This document shows positions 2,267 to 9,669 of a DNA stretch of 9,669 bases, one piece after another (the first letter of the stretch is position 1; each line of letters opens with the position of its first letter). The notes below the pieces were generated by a model. The model saw only the letters and a list, made by a program, of their open reading frames with translations, did not search any database and was not told where the DNA came from. Both the position numbers and the translations under genes were made by a program. Origin of the DNA: Candidatus Auribacterota bacterium (GTDB lineage: Bacteria; Auribacterota; JAFGBW01); the NCBI GenBank assembly GCA_016932965.1, contig JAFGBW010000044.1, positions 1 through 9,669 on the forward strand. The letters are read 5' to 3'.

Positions 2267-3373
2267 ATGGCCAAGGTCAGTTTGAACAATATAAGCAAGA
2301 CATACGATGAGAAGGAATATGCGGTCCTAAACTGTAATCTGGAAATCGAAGACAGGGAATTTGTGGTTCTGGTCGGGCCTTCAGGCTGCGGCAAATCCAC
2401 GACATTGCGCATGGTTGCAGGATTGGAATCCGTTTCTTCGGGAGAAATCATGATCGGGGACATGGTCGTCAACCATATTCCTCCCAAGGACCGCGATATC
2501 GCCATGGTGTTTCAGAATTATGCTCTTTATCCTCACATGACTGTTTTCGATAACATGGCTTTTGGCTTGAAATTGCGCCGTTTTTCTAAAAATGAGATAT
2601 CCGAAAGGGTCCTGCATGCGGCTAAAATACTGAATATCGAACCCTTTCTACACCGAAAACCCAGGGAATTATCCGGAGGAGAACGCCAGCGGGTCGCTGT
2701 GGGCCGGGCGATCGTCCGTAAACCGCAGGTGTTTTTATTCGATGAGCCTTTGTCGAACCTGGACGCTAAAATGAGGGTCCAGATGCGGACTGAAATCTCC
2801 AGACTGCATAAACGTCTCCAGACCACCATGATTTATGTGACCCATGACCAGGTTGAAGCCATGACCATGGGAGACCGTATTGTGGTCATGAATAAGGGGG
2901 AAATCCAGCAGGTGGCTGACCCATTAACCATTTATGAACACCCCCGAAATCTGTTTGTAGCCGGATTCATCGGATCTCCACCTATGAACTTTTTTTCGGG
3001 TAAAATCATATCAGCTGGAAGTATCCTTCAATTTGTCATCAAAGGGATGTCATTGCAGCTCACGCATGAAATGAACAAAAAAATGCATTCCTACATCAAC
3101 CAGGAGGTCATCATGGGCATCAGGCCGGAAAAAATTTATGACAAATTATTTGCCAAGACCGCAACCGATACGAATACGATCACCGCTTCAGTGGAAGTGG
3201 TGGAACAGATGGGCAGCGAAATGTTTACCTATTTGAAAAATGAATCCGCAGATTTTGTTGCCCGGCTGGATGCCCATGAACAGCTTGAACCGGGACAGGA
3301 TATGGAACTGGTTTTTGACATGAGTAAATGTCATTTCTTTGAACCTGGAACCGGAATCAATCTGGTGGATTAA
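2267..3373 (+). CDS. ABC importer ATPase, MalK/UgpC family
   Basis: This is the ATP-binding subunit of a carbohydrate-type (CUT1, MalK/UgpC/MsmX-like) importer; it would power two permeases at the inner membrane. The 368 residues show Walker [10 protein letters not shown] (37-45), Q-loop Gln83 in [21 protein letters not shown], signature LSGGE (135-139), Walker B VFLFDEP (155-161), D-loop SNLD (163-166) and switch His193 in [16 protein letters not shown]. The C-terminal TOBE/OB-type regulatory domain runs from about 235 to 368, with the family phrases [10 protein letters not shown] and CHFFEPGTG. The start is supported by GGGAG at 2257-2261, five bases before the ATG. No permease or solute-binding gene is in the window, so it is an orphan ATPase that may serve several transporters, as MsmX does. 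The substrate cannot be told. Its 3' end overlaps the convergent HD gene by 17 bp. Confidence 0.93.
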
Positions 3374-3386
3374 AAAGCCGGTTCCA
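3346..3386. terminator. Hairpin across the convergent gene ends
   Basis: TGGAACCGG (3346-3354) pairs perfectly with CCGGTTCCA (3378-3386) across a 23-base loop. It spans the overlap of the ABC gene (stop 3371-3373) and the HD gene (stop 3357-3359), so both transcripts would carry it. No T tract follows on either strand, so its use as a bidirectional terminator or 3'-end stabiliser is only an inference. Confidence 0.4.
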
Positions 3387-3938
3387 TTCCAGGAAGGTTT
3401 CGGATTTTGCTGGGGAGAATTTCTCCAGCTCTCTGACGATTTCCGGAATGGTTTTTTCTGTGAGAATCTTTGCCGGAGTTTTTGAGTAGAATTTGTCCGC
3501 CCAGGCAATCAGCTTCTCTTCGAGGCTGAGCGGCATGAAATCTTTTTCAGGCAGCGGAAGGCTTTTTTCACTGATTTCCGTTAGCGTAATTCCTGCCCCC
3601 ACATGGCGCTCACATACGAGAGCTTCTTTACTGAGTCCTTCTTTCCGGAGCAATTCCGCACCCAGATAACCATGGCAAAGATAGGGGGCTTCCCCATGAC
3701 AGTCAATCTCAGGCGCATGGGTGAAAATAATCCCGATATCATGCAGAAGTGAAGCCGAATAAATGAAATCCGGATCAGGATTCATGTGAGGAACTTTCGC
3801 TGCCCCTTTAAGCGCCTTTAATGCCACCTGAGTACTGTGAATCATGAGGATTTCTAAAACAGGTCTGTCAGGATTGACCAGATGAATTAACTTTTTAAAC
3901 GCGGTTGTCCCTGAGAAAATATTTTTGGCTGAATTCAT
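3357..3938 (-). CDS. HD-domain phosphohydrolase
   Basis: This 193-aa protein carries a metal-dependent HD phosphohydrolase domain. Candidate ligands are His34 (MIHST), His66-Asp67 (LLHDIGI), His89 ([10 protein letters not shown]), His102 (ERHVGAG) and Asp148 (AWADKFYSK). The phrases [33 protein letters not shown] and [16 protein letters not shown] are typical of a family of small stand-alone HD proteins, likely cytoplasmic, found in several Gram-negative groups. The natural substrate is not established for these. No signal peptide or extra sensory domain is present. The ATG is preceded by A/T-rich sequence without a good Shine-Dalgarno, which could mean translation linked to the upstream gene. 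It lies 51 bp downstream of the 853-aa exported-protein gene on the same strand with no terminator between, so co-transcription is likely. Its end overlaps the convergent ABC gene. Confidence 0.88.
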
Positions 3939-3989: not shown

Positions 3990-6551
3990 TCAGGCTGAGG
4001 TTTCCGGCAGGCCGCTGTCCGGCATCAGGATGATATCAATGCCTCTGAGCCTTTGTGCAATACGCATACTCGGAGAAGCCAGCCAGATATAAAAACCAGT
4101 CGTTTGTGCATCCGAAGTCATATTGGAGAGAAAATTGTTTTTGCGCGCGTCTGCTATCCCTGATTTCGAGACGTCCCTGTCGTTCAGCCTGGTTGAAACA
4201 GAATTGATAAAACCTGTTTCAGGATCAAAATCCTCCCAGGTCACCACGTTCGCTCCTGACGAATCTGTGTATAAAACAGCATGAAAGAATAAGGTTGGGT
4301 CTCCTTTGTCATAGGGGGCTTTAAAAACGGATGAAATCCCCTGAACTCCCTCCATCAGGGGATACAGGGATAGCTCACGGGTGGCAGTGGAGAAATTCCC
4401 ATAATAGAGATGGTCCGATCCGGAAGCATCTGTAAAAAGCAGCGGTATGGCAATATCATCGGAGTCTCCTGGAATAAAAGATCCTGAAGACCTGTTTCCT
4501 CCGATCTGTTTAATCACATGCCCCTCCGGGAAATTTTGCATTCTCTCCGTGGTCATTTTATCGCCCCCGAAGGACAGGATATCCAGATCGGTTTCTCCTG
4601 GAACATCCCCAATAAGCATAAAGCATATATCATTCTGGGGACGGACCGCGCTGCCGGCAGTCAATTGGAGGACTTCCCCGCGGGGAAATTCACTGAGAAT
4701 GATGTTAAGCTGATTCAGTATTTCAATACCCTCTTCGTTCAGACCGGATGAATTATCCAGAATGGATTTGACAAATTCAACCGTATCCAGGGCGTCCGCT
4801 CCAAATATCTGTCGGGGTTGTGCAGGCGGGCTGTATCCTGTATCACTGGTATAGACTCTTAAGGTTTTGCCGGATTCATAGGTGATGATTTTTTCCACCG
4901 GGGCGCTGGCTGAAAGCACTGTATAGATGATCACAGTTTCTGTTCCGAAGGTGTATGCCCTGACAGAAACCCTGCCGGAAGAGTCAGGCATGATCTGTTC
5001 ATAATCCGGCTGAACAGTCAGTTTTAAAATAGCCGCATCCAGGTCTGATAAAATGGCTTCTTTTGACGGGGCGCTTTCAGAGGGGATGCTTTCGTATAAT
5101 ACTTTAAGATATTGCAGATGTTTAAGAGCTTCAAGGCCTGAAAAAGTCCCCTTATCGTTTTTAACGATGATGGAAGATGGCGTCACGACAATCCTTGAAG
5201 AGGCATCCTCGTATCTGAAATCAAGGACGGTTCTTTCATCAGACTGCCATTTCTGCCATTGATATTCATTGTAGCTTGTCAGGGGGATTGTTTCAGGAAT
5301 ATCGATATGCGCGTTTTCTATGGTATTCAAATACCACATGCCTGATTCACTCAATTTTCCGTCAATCAGTGAAAGAGACGGGGAGGTATAGTCCGTAAGG
5401 GTCAGCCTGCCAACACCTAAAGGGCCTGGCCTGGTGATGACTAAATTGTTGCTGTCCATGTCATCAGTACGTACATTTTCAATTTTTGCCCCATGACCGG
5501 TATCATACACTTTTATTGCACCATTATGATCCGCCAAAAATAGCCTGCCTGTTTCTTGAGTATCATCGGTGACGTTCACGGTTATCAGGTAATATTCAAA
5601 GGTGGAGTTCATGTAAAAATATCCGGAGATTTCGAAATCAGTCACTCCTAGGGTCACGGATGGATCGTAATCCGCTACGAGCCATTCTGCATCCATAGTC
5701 ACGGCAGAATCCGGGGATGAGTATTGATAATGCCTCATGACTAACTTTCCGTCGGTTTTCCTGATCAGAGCGTGGTACCTTTCCTCGGATATCCGGCCTG
5801 CCAGAAATTGTTCCCCATCCTGCAGCGGACATTGATACAAATCATGAAGACTGCCTGTTTCAGCTCCTGCTCCGGGCGGATCCTGAAGCCTGGGTGCAAT
5901 CAGGATGCAGTCGTATTCGGCGGTATCATTCCCTGTCCCCGCCCAGGATCCGGCATTTCCGCTTTCACCCGCACTCCCTCCCGGATTCAGGTTCATTCCT
6001 CCTTGCGGTTTTCCCCCATTGGTGACGGAATCTCCGCCAACAGAGCGTCCTCCGTCTGAATTTTCTTTTATCCCTGCTGACCCTTCTGTTTTTCCTCCTT
6101 CAGAAAAAGAGCCTCCTTCTGATGACCTGTAACCTCCAAGAGGCCTGACCCCGCCAGAGTGATTCCCCCCAATAACAGCTGCTCCGCCGAACCCTTTGCC
6201 TCCTGATCCGGAATTGTTTCCACCGTAAGCGGGCCGTTCTCCTCCTGAAGAATAAACTCTTGTTCCACCTGAATTATCCTGTCCGCCATAGGGATGATTA
6301 TTTTTTCCGGCATCGTCCGATTCACCCTCAAGCCCTGTTCTTCCGCATGCAGGAAAGATCCCATCCATTAATGACAGTAATAAAATATACCTCGGTGATA
6401 AGCCAAGCAGGGTGAGCCTGCTGCCCAGCTTTTCTTCCCTCGAGGCAATTTCCGGATCAAGCGTTTCCAGATCAGCATGTTTTGGAGCAAGAGAAGAGGC
6501 AGGAAAAATGAAATAAAACAGGAAAATATGAGTGAACAGCAATTGTTTCAT
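3990..6551 (-). CDS. Large exported protein with Gly-Gly-rich tether and unrecognised beta-rich domain
   Basis: I do not recognise the family of this 853-aa protein. Residues 1-22 look like a Sec signal peptide (MKQLLFTHIFLFYFIFPASS). A second hydrophobic segment at 54-69, RYILLLSLMDGIFPAC, ends in Cys69-Gly70 and resembles a weak lipobox. Residues 72-207 are low-complexity and hydrophilic, with sixteen Gly-Gly pairs spaced about every 5-8 residues. From about 210 to the end the chain is beta-rich, with many strand-turn segments such as GRLFLADHNGAIKVYD (335-350), and two likely helical stretches near 473-511 and 585-620. Only four cysteines occur: 69, 215, 241 and 643. The layout of anchor, flexible tether and globular domain suggests a surface or periplasmic lipoprotein; the domain could be propeller-like, but that is a guess. 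A strong promoter precedes it, and the HD phosphohydrolase follows 51 bp downstream. The ribosome binding site is weak (GAG). Confidence 0.85.
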   Translation of the reverse strand: MKQLLFTHIFLFYFIFPASSLAPKHADLETLDPEIASREEKLGSRLTLLGLSPRYILLLSLMDGIFPACGRTGLEGESDDAGKNNHPYGGQDNSGGTRVYSSGGERPAYGGNNSGSGGKGFGGAAVIGGNHSGGVRPLGGYRSSEGGSFSEGGKTEGSAGIKENSDGGRSVGGDSVTNGGKPQGGMNLNPGGSAGESGNAGSWAGTGNDTAEYDCILIAPRLQDPPGAGAETGSLHDLYQCPLQDGEQFLAGRISEERYHALIRKTDGKLVMRHYQYSSPDSAVTMDAEWLVADYDPSVTLGVTDFEISGYFYMNSTFEYYLITVNVTDDTQETGRLFLADHNGAIKVYDTGHGAKIENVRTDDMDSNNLVITRPGPLGVGRLTLTDYTSPSLSLIDGKLSESGMWYLNTIENAHIDIPETIPLTSYNEYQWQKWQSDERTVLDFRYEDASSRIVVTPSSIIVKNDKGTFSGLEALKHLQYLKVLYESIPSESAPSKEAILSDLDAAILKLTVQPDYEQIMPDSSGRVSVRAYTFGTETVIIYTVLSASAPVEKIITYESGKTLRVYTSDTGYSPPAQPRQIFGADALDTVEFVKSILDNSSGLNEEGIEILNQLNIILSEFPRGEVLQLTAGSAVRPQNDICFMLIGDVPGETDLDILSFGGDKMTTERMQNFPEGHVIKQIGGNRSSGSFIPGDSDDIAIPLLFTDASGSDHLYYGNFSTATRELSLYPLMEGVQGISSVFKAPYDKGDPTLFFHAVLYTDSSGANVVTWEDFDPETGFINSVSTRLNDRDVSKSGIADARKNNFLSNMTSDAQTTGFYIWLASPSMRIAQRLRGIDIILMPDSGLPETSA
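5931..6338 (-). repeat. Gly-Gly-rich low-complexity coding segment
   Basis: This stretch encodes residues 72-207 of the 853-aa protein. Short units such as NSGG, SSGG, HSGG, SEGG, NSDGG and TNGG recur at intervals of roughly 15-24 bases but are never identical. That fits an old, diverged repeat or selection for a flexible hydrophilic linker rather than recent duplication. On the other strand it yields spurious Pro-rich open frames. Confidence 0.75.
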
Positions 6552-6905: not shown

Positions 6906-7023
6906 ATTACAGATTGTGCGTATTGATTTTCCCTCATGTATTTATCTAATTTATTTTTATTAAATGAGTTACATCTTTTTTTGCTGTGTGGGATCAGTAT
7001 TTGCATTTATATTAAGGCAAGAA

Positions 7024-7028
7024 AGGGA
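7024..7028 (+). promoter_or_regulatory. Ribosome binding site that fixes the start at 7035
   Basis: AGGGA (within GAAAGGGA, 7021-7028) sits six bases before the ATG at 7035. The upstream in-frame ATG at 6936 has only AT-rich sequence before it and no such site. This decides in favour of the shorter protein. Confidence 0.7.
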
Positions 7029-7034
7029 ACGATC

Positions 7035-8138
7035 ATGAAAGAGTGGACTAAATGGAAAGTGCTGGATTACCGGCTGCCCAATCGTCATGTAGAGGTCCGT
7101 TTTGATGAAATCGTGGATCTCATGAATAAAGGAGAACTGGGGCAAAGCGACCTGGTCTGTCCTCCGAACGAGGAGAATTATCAGTTCGTTTCTAAATGTG
7201 CCCAGCTCCAGTATTATTTCGTCAAATCCTATTACGATATTTTCCATGAACATAAGACACAAAGGAAATACATAGAAAACTGTTTTGGCCTTCCGGTGAA
7301 TAAAAGAACCGCTTTTGTCCAGGAAAACTATTTTTTCTCCGCCTTTTTTAAGAAGAAAAAATTGGACCTTTTGGAAAGATGTTCTTCACAGCTCATCAAG
7401 ATCCTCGAACCCCTGGAAGAGATCAATTATATCTTCAGTGCTACCGCAGATATCGGCCTTTCGTCTTTTTTCAGCTTTTTTTTCAATACCAGCCGTTTTC
7501 TTGAAAGTTTTGTGATCATCACTAATCTGAGGATCATTCAGGCCTACTGGAATCCTAAAACCAACCGCCCCGAATCTTTTAAAAGCATCTATCTGTCCAA
7601 TATCACGGATTTTCAATTCTCGTCATCTTCCATCCAGTCTCCTAAACTGGAAATATACTTTTATAACAAATGCCTCCTGACATGGCTGAAAATGAATCCC
7701 ATTGATAAGGTCCAGCTGATGCCCGTTCTTTCAGGATTGATCAATAAAAACAGCCATCCCGCCACCAACATCAACGAGGTGTGGGTGCCGAATCTCTGCA
7801 AGTCCTGTTTTTCAAAATTAAAATCCGATTCGCTTCTTTGCCCCTATTGCGATACGGAATACAAATCTCCTTCACGGGCATCTGAACTTTCAGCACTCAT
7901 TCCGGGGCTTGGACTCATTTACAGCGGATTCAAATGGTGGGGGATCACTTCCATCATAGGGGAATTGATCTTTTTATTCGGCTGTTTCCCCTTCCTGATT
8001 TCCATGAATTATCCGATGTCCATCAATTTCATGATTCTCGGAATGATCAGCCTCTTTTTAATCATCACGCATCAGCAATGCGCCAGGACCATGGAAACGC
8101 TCGTCAAGGAGCTGCGCCCCCTGGCCAAGGGATCATAA
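7035..8138 (+). CDS. Membrane protein with PH-like domain, zinc ribbon and two C-terminal helices
   Basis: No named family is recognised for this 367-aa protein, but a domain order can be proposed. Residues 2-60 (WTKWKVLDY, then DEIVDLMNKGELGQSDLVCPP) resemble a GYF-like interaction domain. Residues about 120-235, with FLESFVIITNLRIIQAYW and SIYLSNITDFQF, resemble bacterial PH-like domains. Residues 255-272 form a zinc ribbon with Cys255-x2-Cys258 and Cys269-x2-Cys272. After this comes SALIPGLGLIYSGFKWWGI (286-304), the kind of motif seen in small TM2-type membrane modules, with helices near 303-323 and 327-346. The soluble part probably faces the cytoplasm. The start at 7035 is chosen for its ribosome binding site. 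The gene is flanked by gene-poor DNA on both sides, so it likely stands alone. The PH, GYF and TM2 assignments are inferences from pattern; the zinc ribbon is seen directly. Confidence 0.85.
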   Translation: MKEWTKWKVLDYRLPNRHVEVRFDEIVDLMNKGELGQSDLVCPPNEENYQFVSKCAQLQYYFVKSYYDIFHEHKTQRKYIENCFGLPVNKRTAFVQENYFFSAFFKKKKLDLLERCSSQLIKILEPLEEINYIFSATADIGLSSFFSFFFNTSRFLESFVIITNLRIIQAYWNPKTNRPESFKSIYLSNITDFQFSSSSIQSPKLEIYFYNKCLLTWLKMNPIDKVQLMPVLSGLINKNSHPATNINEVWVPNLCKSCFSKLKSDSLLCPYCDTEYKSPSRASELSALIPGLGLIYSGFKWWGITSIIGELIFLFGCFPFLISMNYPMSINFMILGMISLFLIITHQQCARTMETLVKELRPLAKGS

Positions 8139-9100: not shown

Positions 9101-9669
9101 CTAGTAGTTCAGGGTTGCTCTTACATAGAATCTCCGGCCTTCCGGCGCCAGGGTTCCGGTTGTGTTTCCGGCATGCTCTCCGAACGATGGGACCCGGTCA
9201 TCGTTATCCAGAAGATTGAGTGCAACCAGCTCCAGACTCAATTTATTGTCCAGGAATTTCTTTGTCCTTAAAGTGAGGTCAATGAAATTCACGCTTGCTT
9301 TATCCTCATCTGCTTCTGCAGTGATATAAGGAATGGAATTGATGTTTCTTAAAGCCAGATTGACCCTTACCACATCCGCAAGAGAGATTTCAGTGCCGAT
9401 AAAGCTGGTCAGTTCAGGCACAAATAAAGGCTCATCGTCTGAATTGCAGGCCTCAGATACAGTCACGCCTCCGCTTAGAGTTTTTGCTTTCACTTCAGCC
9501 TTCTGATAAGAGCCGTTCCAATACACAATCCAATTCTCAACCGGCATGTATTTTAACGCCCATTCTATGCCCTTTGTTTCAATTCCGCCTGTATTATAGA
9601 ACTGGTTCAAGATACGCGGGTCGTTCACACGTGTGATCTCATCAGTCAGTTCCTGAATAAAAAGAGTCA
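9101..9669 (-). CDS. TonB-dependent outer-membrane receptor, C-terminal barrel part (5' end outside window)
   Basis: This is the last part of a TonB-dependent receptor, a 22-strand outer-membrane barrel that imports iron-siderophore complexes, cobalamin or other ligands with energy from TonB-ExbBD. The frame stays open to the window edge, so the GTG near 9628 is internal. Seen: the barrel phrase FYNTGGIETKGIEWALKYMP, alternating strands such as WIVYWNGSYQKAEVKAKT, the strand VRVNLALRNINSIPYI, FIDLTLRTKKFL, the late-barrel motif LELVALNLLDNDDRVPSFGEH, and a final strand RRFYVRATLNY ending in an aromatic residue, as required for barrel insertion. The plug domain, TonB box and signal peptide lie upstream of the gene part seen. 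The ligand cannot be inferred. A clear terminator follows the gene. Confidence 0.9.
   Translation of the reverse strand, partial: TLFIQELTDEITRVNDPRILNQFYNTGGIETKGIEWALKYMPVENWIVYWNGSYQKAEVKAKTLSGGVTVSEACNSDDEPLFVPELTSFIGTEISLADVVRVNLALRNINSIPYITAEADEDKASVNFIDLTLRTKKFLDNKLSLELVALNLLDNDDRVPSFGEHAGNTTGTLAPEGRRFYVRATLNY

Follow-up and report, generated by a model that had tools for sequence, protein, structure and literature searches.

The window analysed here is a stretch of 9,669 nucleotides from a Candidatus Auribacterota bacterium (contig JAFGBW010000044.1). It contains an open reading frame of 853 stop-free codons, expected by chance with a probability of about 6e-22 at this base composition; this length is beyond chance and the frame is a genuine gene. 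The layout of the encoded protein given in an earlier sequence-only reading is accurate, though the strand was left unstated there. The features of the gene, referred to below as the orphan, and of its neighbours are listed in the table.

Features of the orphan gene and its neighbourhood, in positions of the window.
Feature	Position	Strand	Description
Orphan, whole frame	3990..6551	minus	853 aa and stop; ATG start
Residues 1-20	6492..6551	minus	Probable cleavable Sec signal peptide MKQLLFTHIFLFYFIFPASS; hydropathy maximum, Lys2; likely signal peptidase I site A-S-S/L, inferred
CTG codon 42	6426..6428	minus	Putative; the one non-canonical codon plausible as a later start; GAGG 9 nt upstream
Residues 46-68	6348..6416	minus	Second, weaker hydrophobic stretch LTLLGLSPRYILLLSLMDGIFPA, with Arg54 and Asp63; hydropathy maximum 1.42
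Cys69	6345..6347	minus	Preceded by FPA (non-consensus lipobox)
Residues 70-205	5937..6344	minus	Linker rich in Gly-Gly; 16 GG doublets at intervals of mostly 5-8, GGG absent
Residues 206-853	3993..5936	minus	C-terminal region; acidic (net -44), predicted mainly beta; Cys215 and Cys241 possible disulphide
Residues 428-513	5013..5270	minus	Most confidently predicted submodule; five beta-strands followed by a hairpin of two helices; pLDDT mostly 68-83
ffh	845-2158	plus	Outside the murA-ffh-rpsP-trmD order of sister genomes
UgpC/MalK-type sugar ABC ATPase	2267-3373	plus	Solitary, flanked by ffh and the HD gene
HD-domain protein	3357-3938	minus	PF01966, E 1e-8; resembles TIGR00295
400-aa protein	6936-8138	plus	Zinc-ribbon and DUF5683 matches, both weak; divergent to the orphan
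TonB-dependent-receptor-like barrel	9101-9667	minus	C-terminal end, cut by contig end

Lying in the same direction, the HD-domain gene starts 51 bp after the end of the orphan and could be co-transcribed with it; its product matched nothing else in the phylum. The 400-aa protein has one distant relative, in genome G001 (29 %). No permease genes for the UgpC/MalK-type ATPase are present in the window, and the trmD of this genome (G000) is on another contig, G000:C149. Mis-binning of the contig was considered and rejected: its Ffh is most similar to those of the other two members of the order (56 % and 54 %), with which it groups with full support, and the contig therefore belongs to its genome. 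A syntenic orphan in the sister genomes was likewise rejected, the ffh neighbourhoods there differing from that of the window.

Neither the whole protein nor its C-terminal 651 residues matched any entry in Pfam, NCBIfam, PHROGs, PADLOC or the PDB sequences. The C-terminal residues were searched whole and in three pieces, the pieces against Pfam to E<=10 and the PDB sequences to E<=10. The sequence-only reading had held that this region (about 640 residues there, about 648 here) belongs to no family that could be named; all five collections were empty for it and the profile searches returned no match. No significant relative was found in the same genome or in any of 58 others, of which 15 are outgroup genomes and 43, including the two of the same order, belong to the phylum. 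Scans of plasmids, viral contigs and GTDB contigs gave no significant relative either, the two contig scans being based on exact back-translated peptides, which reach close relatives only. A weak match in G033 (E 0.11, 29 % over 68 aa) is attributed to chance, since it is to a 334-aa protein of FecR-like appearance that does not share the architecture. In the 1.02 Mb searched for them, about one third of the genome, paralogues with a Gly-Gly linker are absent. As far as has been sampled, the protein is a lineage-restricted orphan of a thinly sampled order.

The linker that was reported to follow Cys69 for 136 residues is confirmed by its composition. Gly accounts for 44 of the 136 residues, and the GG doublets are 5-8 residues apart, with one gap of 15. 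When the linker residues are shuffled, a mean of 10.6 doublets is obtained and the probability of at least 16 is 0.001; at least 16 doublets without a GGG were seen in none of 5000 shuffles. The spacing is therefore ordered beyond what Gly-richness would give. No tandem repeat is present in the underlying DNA. Secreted orphan proteins with Gly-rich interdomain linkers are a general class, and the orphan resembles them in its Sec signal, its low-complexity spacer and its unassignable beta-rich domain. It differs from them in the regularity of the GG doublets without GGG and in having a second, weak hydrophobic stretch ahead of the linker.

AlphaFold2 modelling of residues 203-853 without relatives gave a mean pLDDT of 34, with mainly beta-strand predicted and helix pairs near 472-512 and 587-620. 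When residues 425-632 were predicted alone, as a 208-residue model, a confident submodule was obtained at 428-513 only. Fold searches with this model, which is reliable for 428-513 only, reached a best Foldseek E of 0.0098 and a best VIA-align Z of 6.4. Both searches returned scattered, unrelated beta-meander matches, none of which was significant; those to polo-box, XLF, PUR, RseB/LolA, FABP and OspA-type sheets were read as the common beta-meander and rejected. Failure to place the predicted fold is not evidence that it would be new. An internal repeat was also considered: the best self-alignment has a z of about 4 after picking the best pair, which is not convincing. The strand-plus-helix-pair unit predicted at about 520-620 is similar to 428-513 in secondary structure, with a sequence alignment score of only 27.

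At the N-terminus, the hydrophobic stretch covers residues 1-22, and the Kyte-Doolittle maximum of the whole protein (1.76, 19-residue window) falls at residues 4-22. By inspection and hydropathy, MKQLLFTHIFLFYFIFPASS/L has the positive N-terminal residue, the hydrophobic core and the small residues at -3 and -1 of a Sec signal cleaved by signal peptidase I. The suggestion that a good Sec signal exports the protein is thus supported by Lys2 and by the strongest hydropathy at 4-22. On these features the protein looks to be exported through the Sec route, which is favoured because a single convincing N-terminal signal directly follows the only well-placed canonical start. A TTGACA is present about 60 nt upstream of ATG1; because promoter-like sites near this region are less than 2 s.d. 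above shuffles, it was set aside as evidence.

The second hydrophobic segment, ending in Cys69-Gly70 directly before the linker, is also as had been described. On the same 19-residue scale its hydropathy of 1.42 is at residues 48-66, and the maximum after residue 70 is only 1.26. The stretch is real, yet under the usual transmembrane cut-off of 1.6. The presence of two hydrophobic stretches would fit a membrane-anchored protein, in which the first is cleaved and the second, or an uncleaved first, is an inner-membrane or peripheral anchor from which the linker reaches into the periplasm. This is considered unlikely, given that the second stretch is below the threshold and carries Arg54, Asp63 and prolines. 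In addition, if ATG1 is used, the C-terminal domain would be brought back into the cytoplasm by a second segment that crosses the membrane, and such a hairpin of both segments is ill-matched to the export features.

The segment had been taken as possible grounds for a later true start, with Cys69 as a lipid anchor. In codons 1-70 the only canonical starts are ATG1, TTG4 and ATG62, the last of which is inside the hydrophobic core; there is no ATG, GTG or TTG between codons 4 and 62, and a later start therefore needs a non-canonical codon. The lipobox consensus is [LVI][ASTVI][GAS]C (PMC7857515), from which the FPAC box of Cys69 departs at two of three positions, F(-3) and P(-2), and Asp63 breaks up the hydrophobic core before it. 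Nine lipoprotein-like N-termini from one third of the genome have mostly Gly-Cys ends (LSGC, ITGC, LGGC, LPGC, IGGC), and none of the nine ends in FPAC.

A lipoprotein could still be made if translation started at CTG42, with residues 42-68 as a type II signal, cleavage by LspA before Cys69 and the linker as a surface tether. The GAGG upstream of CTG42, the normal signal length of 27 residues from there to Cys69, Arg45 and Arg54 on the N-side, and the Gly-rich tether straight after the Cys, which is typical, are consistent with this, as are the LspA encoded in the genome (PF01252, E=8.4e-35), which is part of the lipoprotein-processing machinery, and another lipoprotein-like box of the genome that also has Pro at -2 (LPGC). 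It would, however, require a rare and unusual CTG start, an off-consensus box, an Asp within the core, and residues 1-20 that are signal-like by accident, and it is therefore thought decidedly improbable. Likewise, for a protein that carries both segments, lipidation of Cys69 is topologically difficult by our reasoning: with ATG1 in use, segment 1 would export the chain with its C-side out, whereas lipidation needs the opposite orientation, and is thereby disfavoured. On these sequence features, a lipid anchor at Cys69 appears a weak reading, and one that is mostly not supported.

The surface lipoproteins of Gram-negative bacteria (PMC7857515) resemble the orphan in being exported, in the flexible linker after Cys-Gly, in the large folded domain and in the LspA of the genome. 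The tether after the Cys is of the flexible kind, with its 44 Gly and 16 GG in 136 residues. The orphan differs in having no canonical start for an N-terminal type II signal, so that only CTG42 could place such a signal directly before the Cys, in the off-consensus FPAC, and in the separate, ordinary Sec signal ahead. A further variant, thought to have only the slightest chance of being correct, is that one gene gives two products, one secreted from ATG1 and cleaved by signal peptidase I, the other lipid-anchored from CTG42 via Cys69, with the choice of start setting release or attachment. If true, the same tethered beta-domain would be switched in a simple way between a released and an anchored form.

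Autotransporters with extended signal peptides likewise have a pair of hydrophobic segments within their first 70 residues (PMC2805444). Residues 1-68 could on this basis be one long bipartite signal (H1-N2-H2) cleaved after about residue 68: a charged stretch parts the two hydrophobic ones, with 68 residues in all, and such long signals are known (PMC2805444). The middle region of the orphan is, in contrast, acidic with a net negative charge, the tabulated N-domains of extended signal peptides averaging approximately four Lys+Arg and one acidic residue (PMC2805444). At a cut-off of E<=10, no Pfam family for an autotransporter C-terminal beta-barrel translocator was found anywhere in residues 203-853. 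A bipartite signal is therefore very unlikely.

The explanation proposed, with a little better than an even chance, is that of a Sec-exported, lineage-restricted envelope protein, processed by signal peptidase I around residue 20, in which the Gly-Gly spacer holds an acidic, beta-rich domain off its attachment point. Residues 1-20 would target the chain to Sec and signal peptidase I probably cleaves near residue 20. The mature N-terminus, about residues 21-68, is moderately hydrophobic at 46-68 and most likely lies packed on the membrane or on a partner in the envelope. The 136-residue linker has the composition of a flexible spacer, and may act as one, putting distance between the attachment point and the C-terminal domain, which is predicted to be mainly beta. 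As a guess from the architecture, that domain is most likely a non-enzymatic binding or adhesion module, which is favoured because no enzyme family was found in Pfam, NCBIfam, PHROGs, PADLOC or the PDB. This explanation is supported by the difference of the linker, in composition and spacing, from shuffles of its own residues, and by a beta-rich prediction that spans the C-terminal region, with the confident five-strand and two-helix submodule at 428-513. An envelope location is supported because the genome looks diderm, with a TonB-receptor-like barrel fragment in the window and LspA present. The proposal is weakened by the mean pLDDT of the full C-terminal prediction and because, without a homologue, no residue, signal or boundary has support from conservation. 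The orphan is ordinary, one of many orphan envelope proteins; in phyla that have been poorly sampled, exported orphans that carry a low-complexity spacer are common, and the finding matters little.

A separate observation was made while kinship was being checked by Ffh, which is absent from about half of the phylum. The PF00448 search covers the Ffh, FtsY and FlhF GTPases together; it found no match in 23 of 43 phylum genomes, and in two more there is only a weak P-loop match (G018) or a fragment (G035). All 14 control genomes have matches. In a scan with stricter filters, the SRP RNA (RF00169) was found in none of the 25 SRP-negative genomes (G003, G005, G006, G008, G010, G012, G013, G016, G018, G023, G025, G027, G029, G030 and G032-G042; loci L185-L196, with SRP-positive comparison loci L048 and L197-L199), and it was also missed in some SRP-positive genomes. 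In the present genome, Ffh and FtsY-type GTPases are present and this stricter scan has no RF00169 match; since the assembly is 92.6 % complete, the SRP RNA probably falls in a gap or is divergent.

The SRP GTPases and RF00169 are missing family by family (f3, f5, f6, f8, f12, f15, f16 and f17; 25 out of 43 genomes), and several of the SRP-negative genomes are 94-98 % complete. SecY is present in 40 of the 43 phylum genomes and TrmD in 39, including all 21 of good quality. SRP-positive genomes G001, G007, G021 and G028 have a conserved murA-ffh-rpsP-trmD-rplS-rnhB site; in G005, G006, G012 and G030 (families f5, f6 and f15), rpsP directly follows murA and ffh is missing at the syntenic site. 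In a TrmD tree the SRP-negative genomes cluster, with 4 changes compared with 11.5 in shuffles, and one origin of the SRP-negative state is conceivable. PMC7844537 describes the SRP pathway as one that all living organisms conserve. The apparent loss of the SRP pathway in related families, seen here in draft assemblies, is far more surprising than the orphan protein and, if confirmed in closed genomes, would be a natural clade-wide loss of the pathway.
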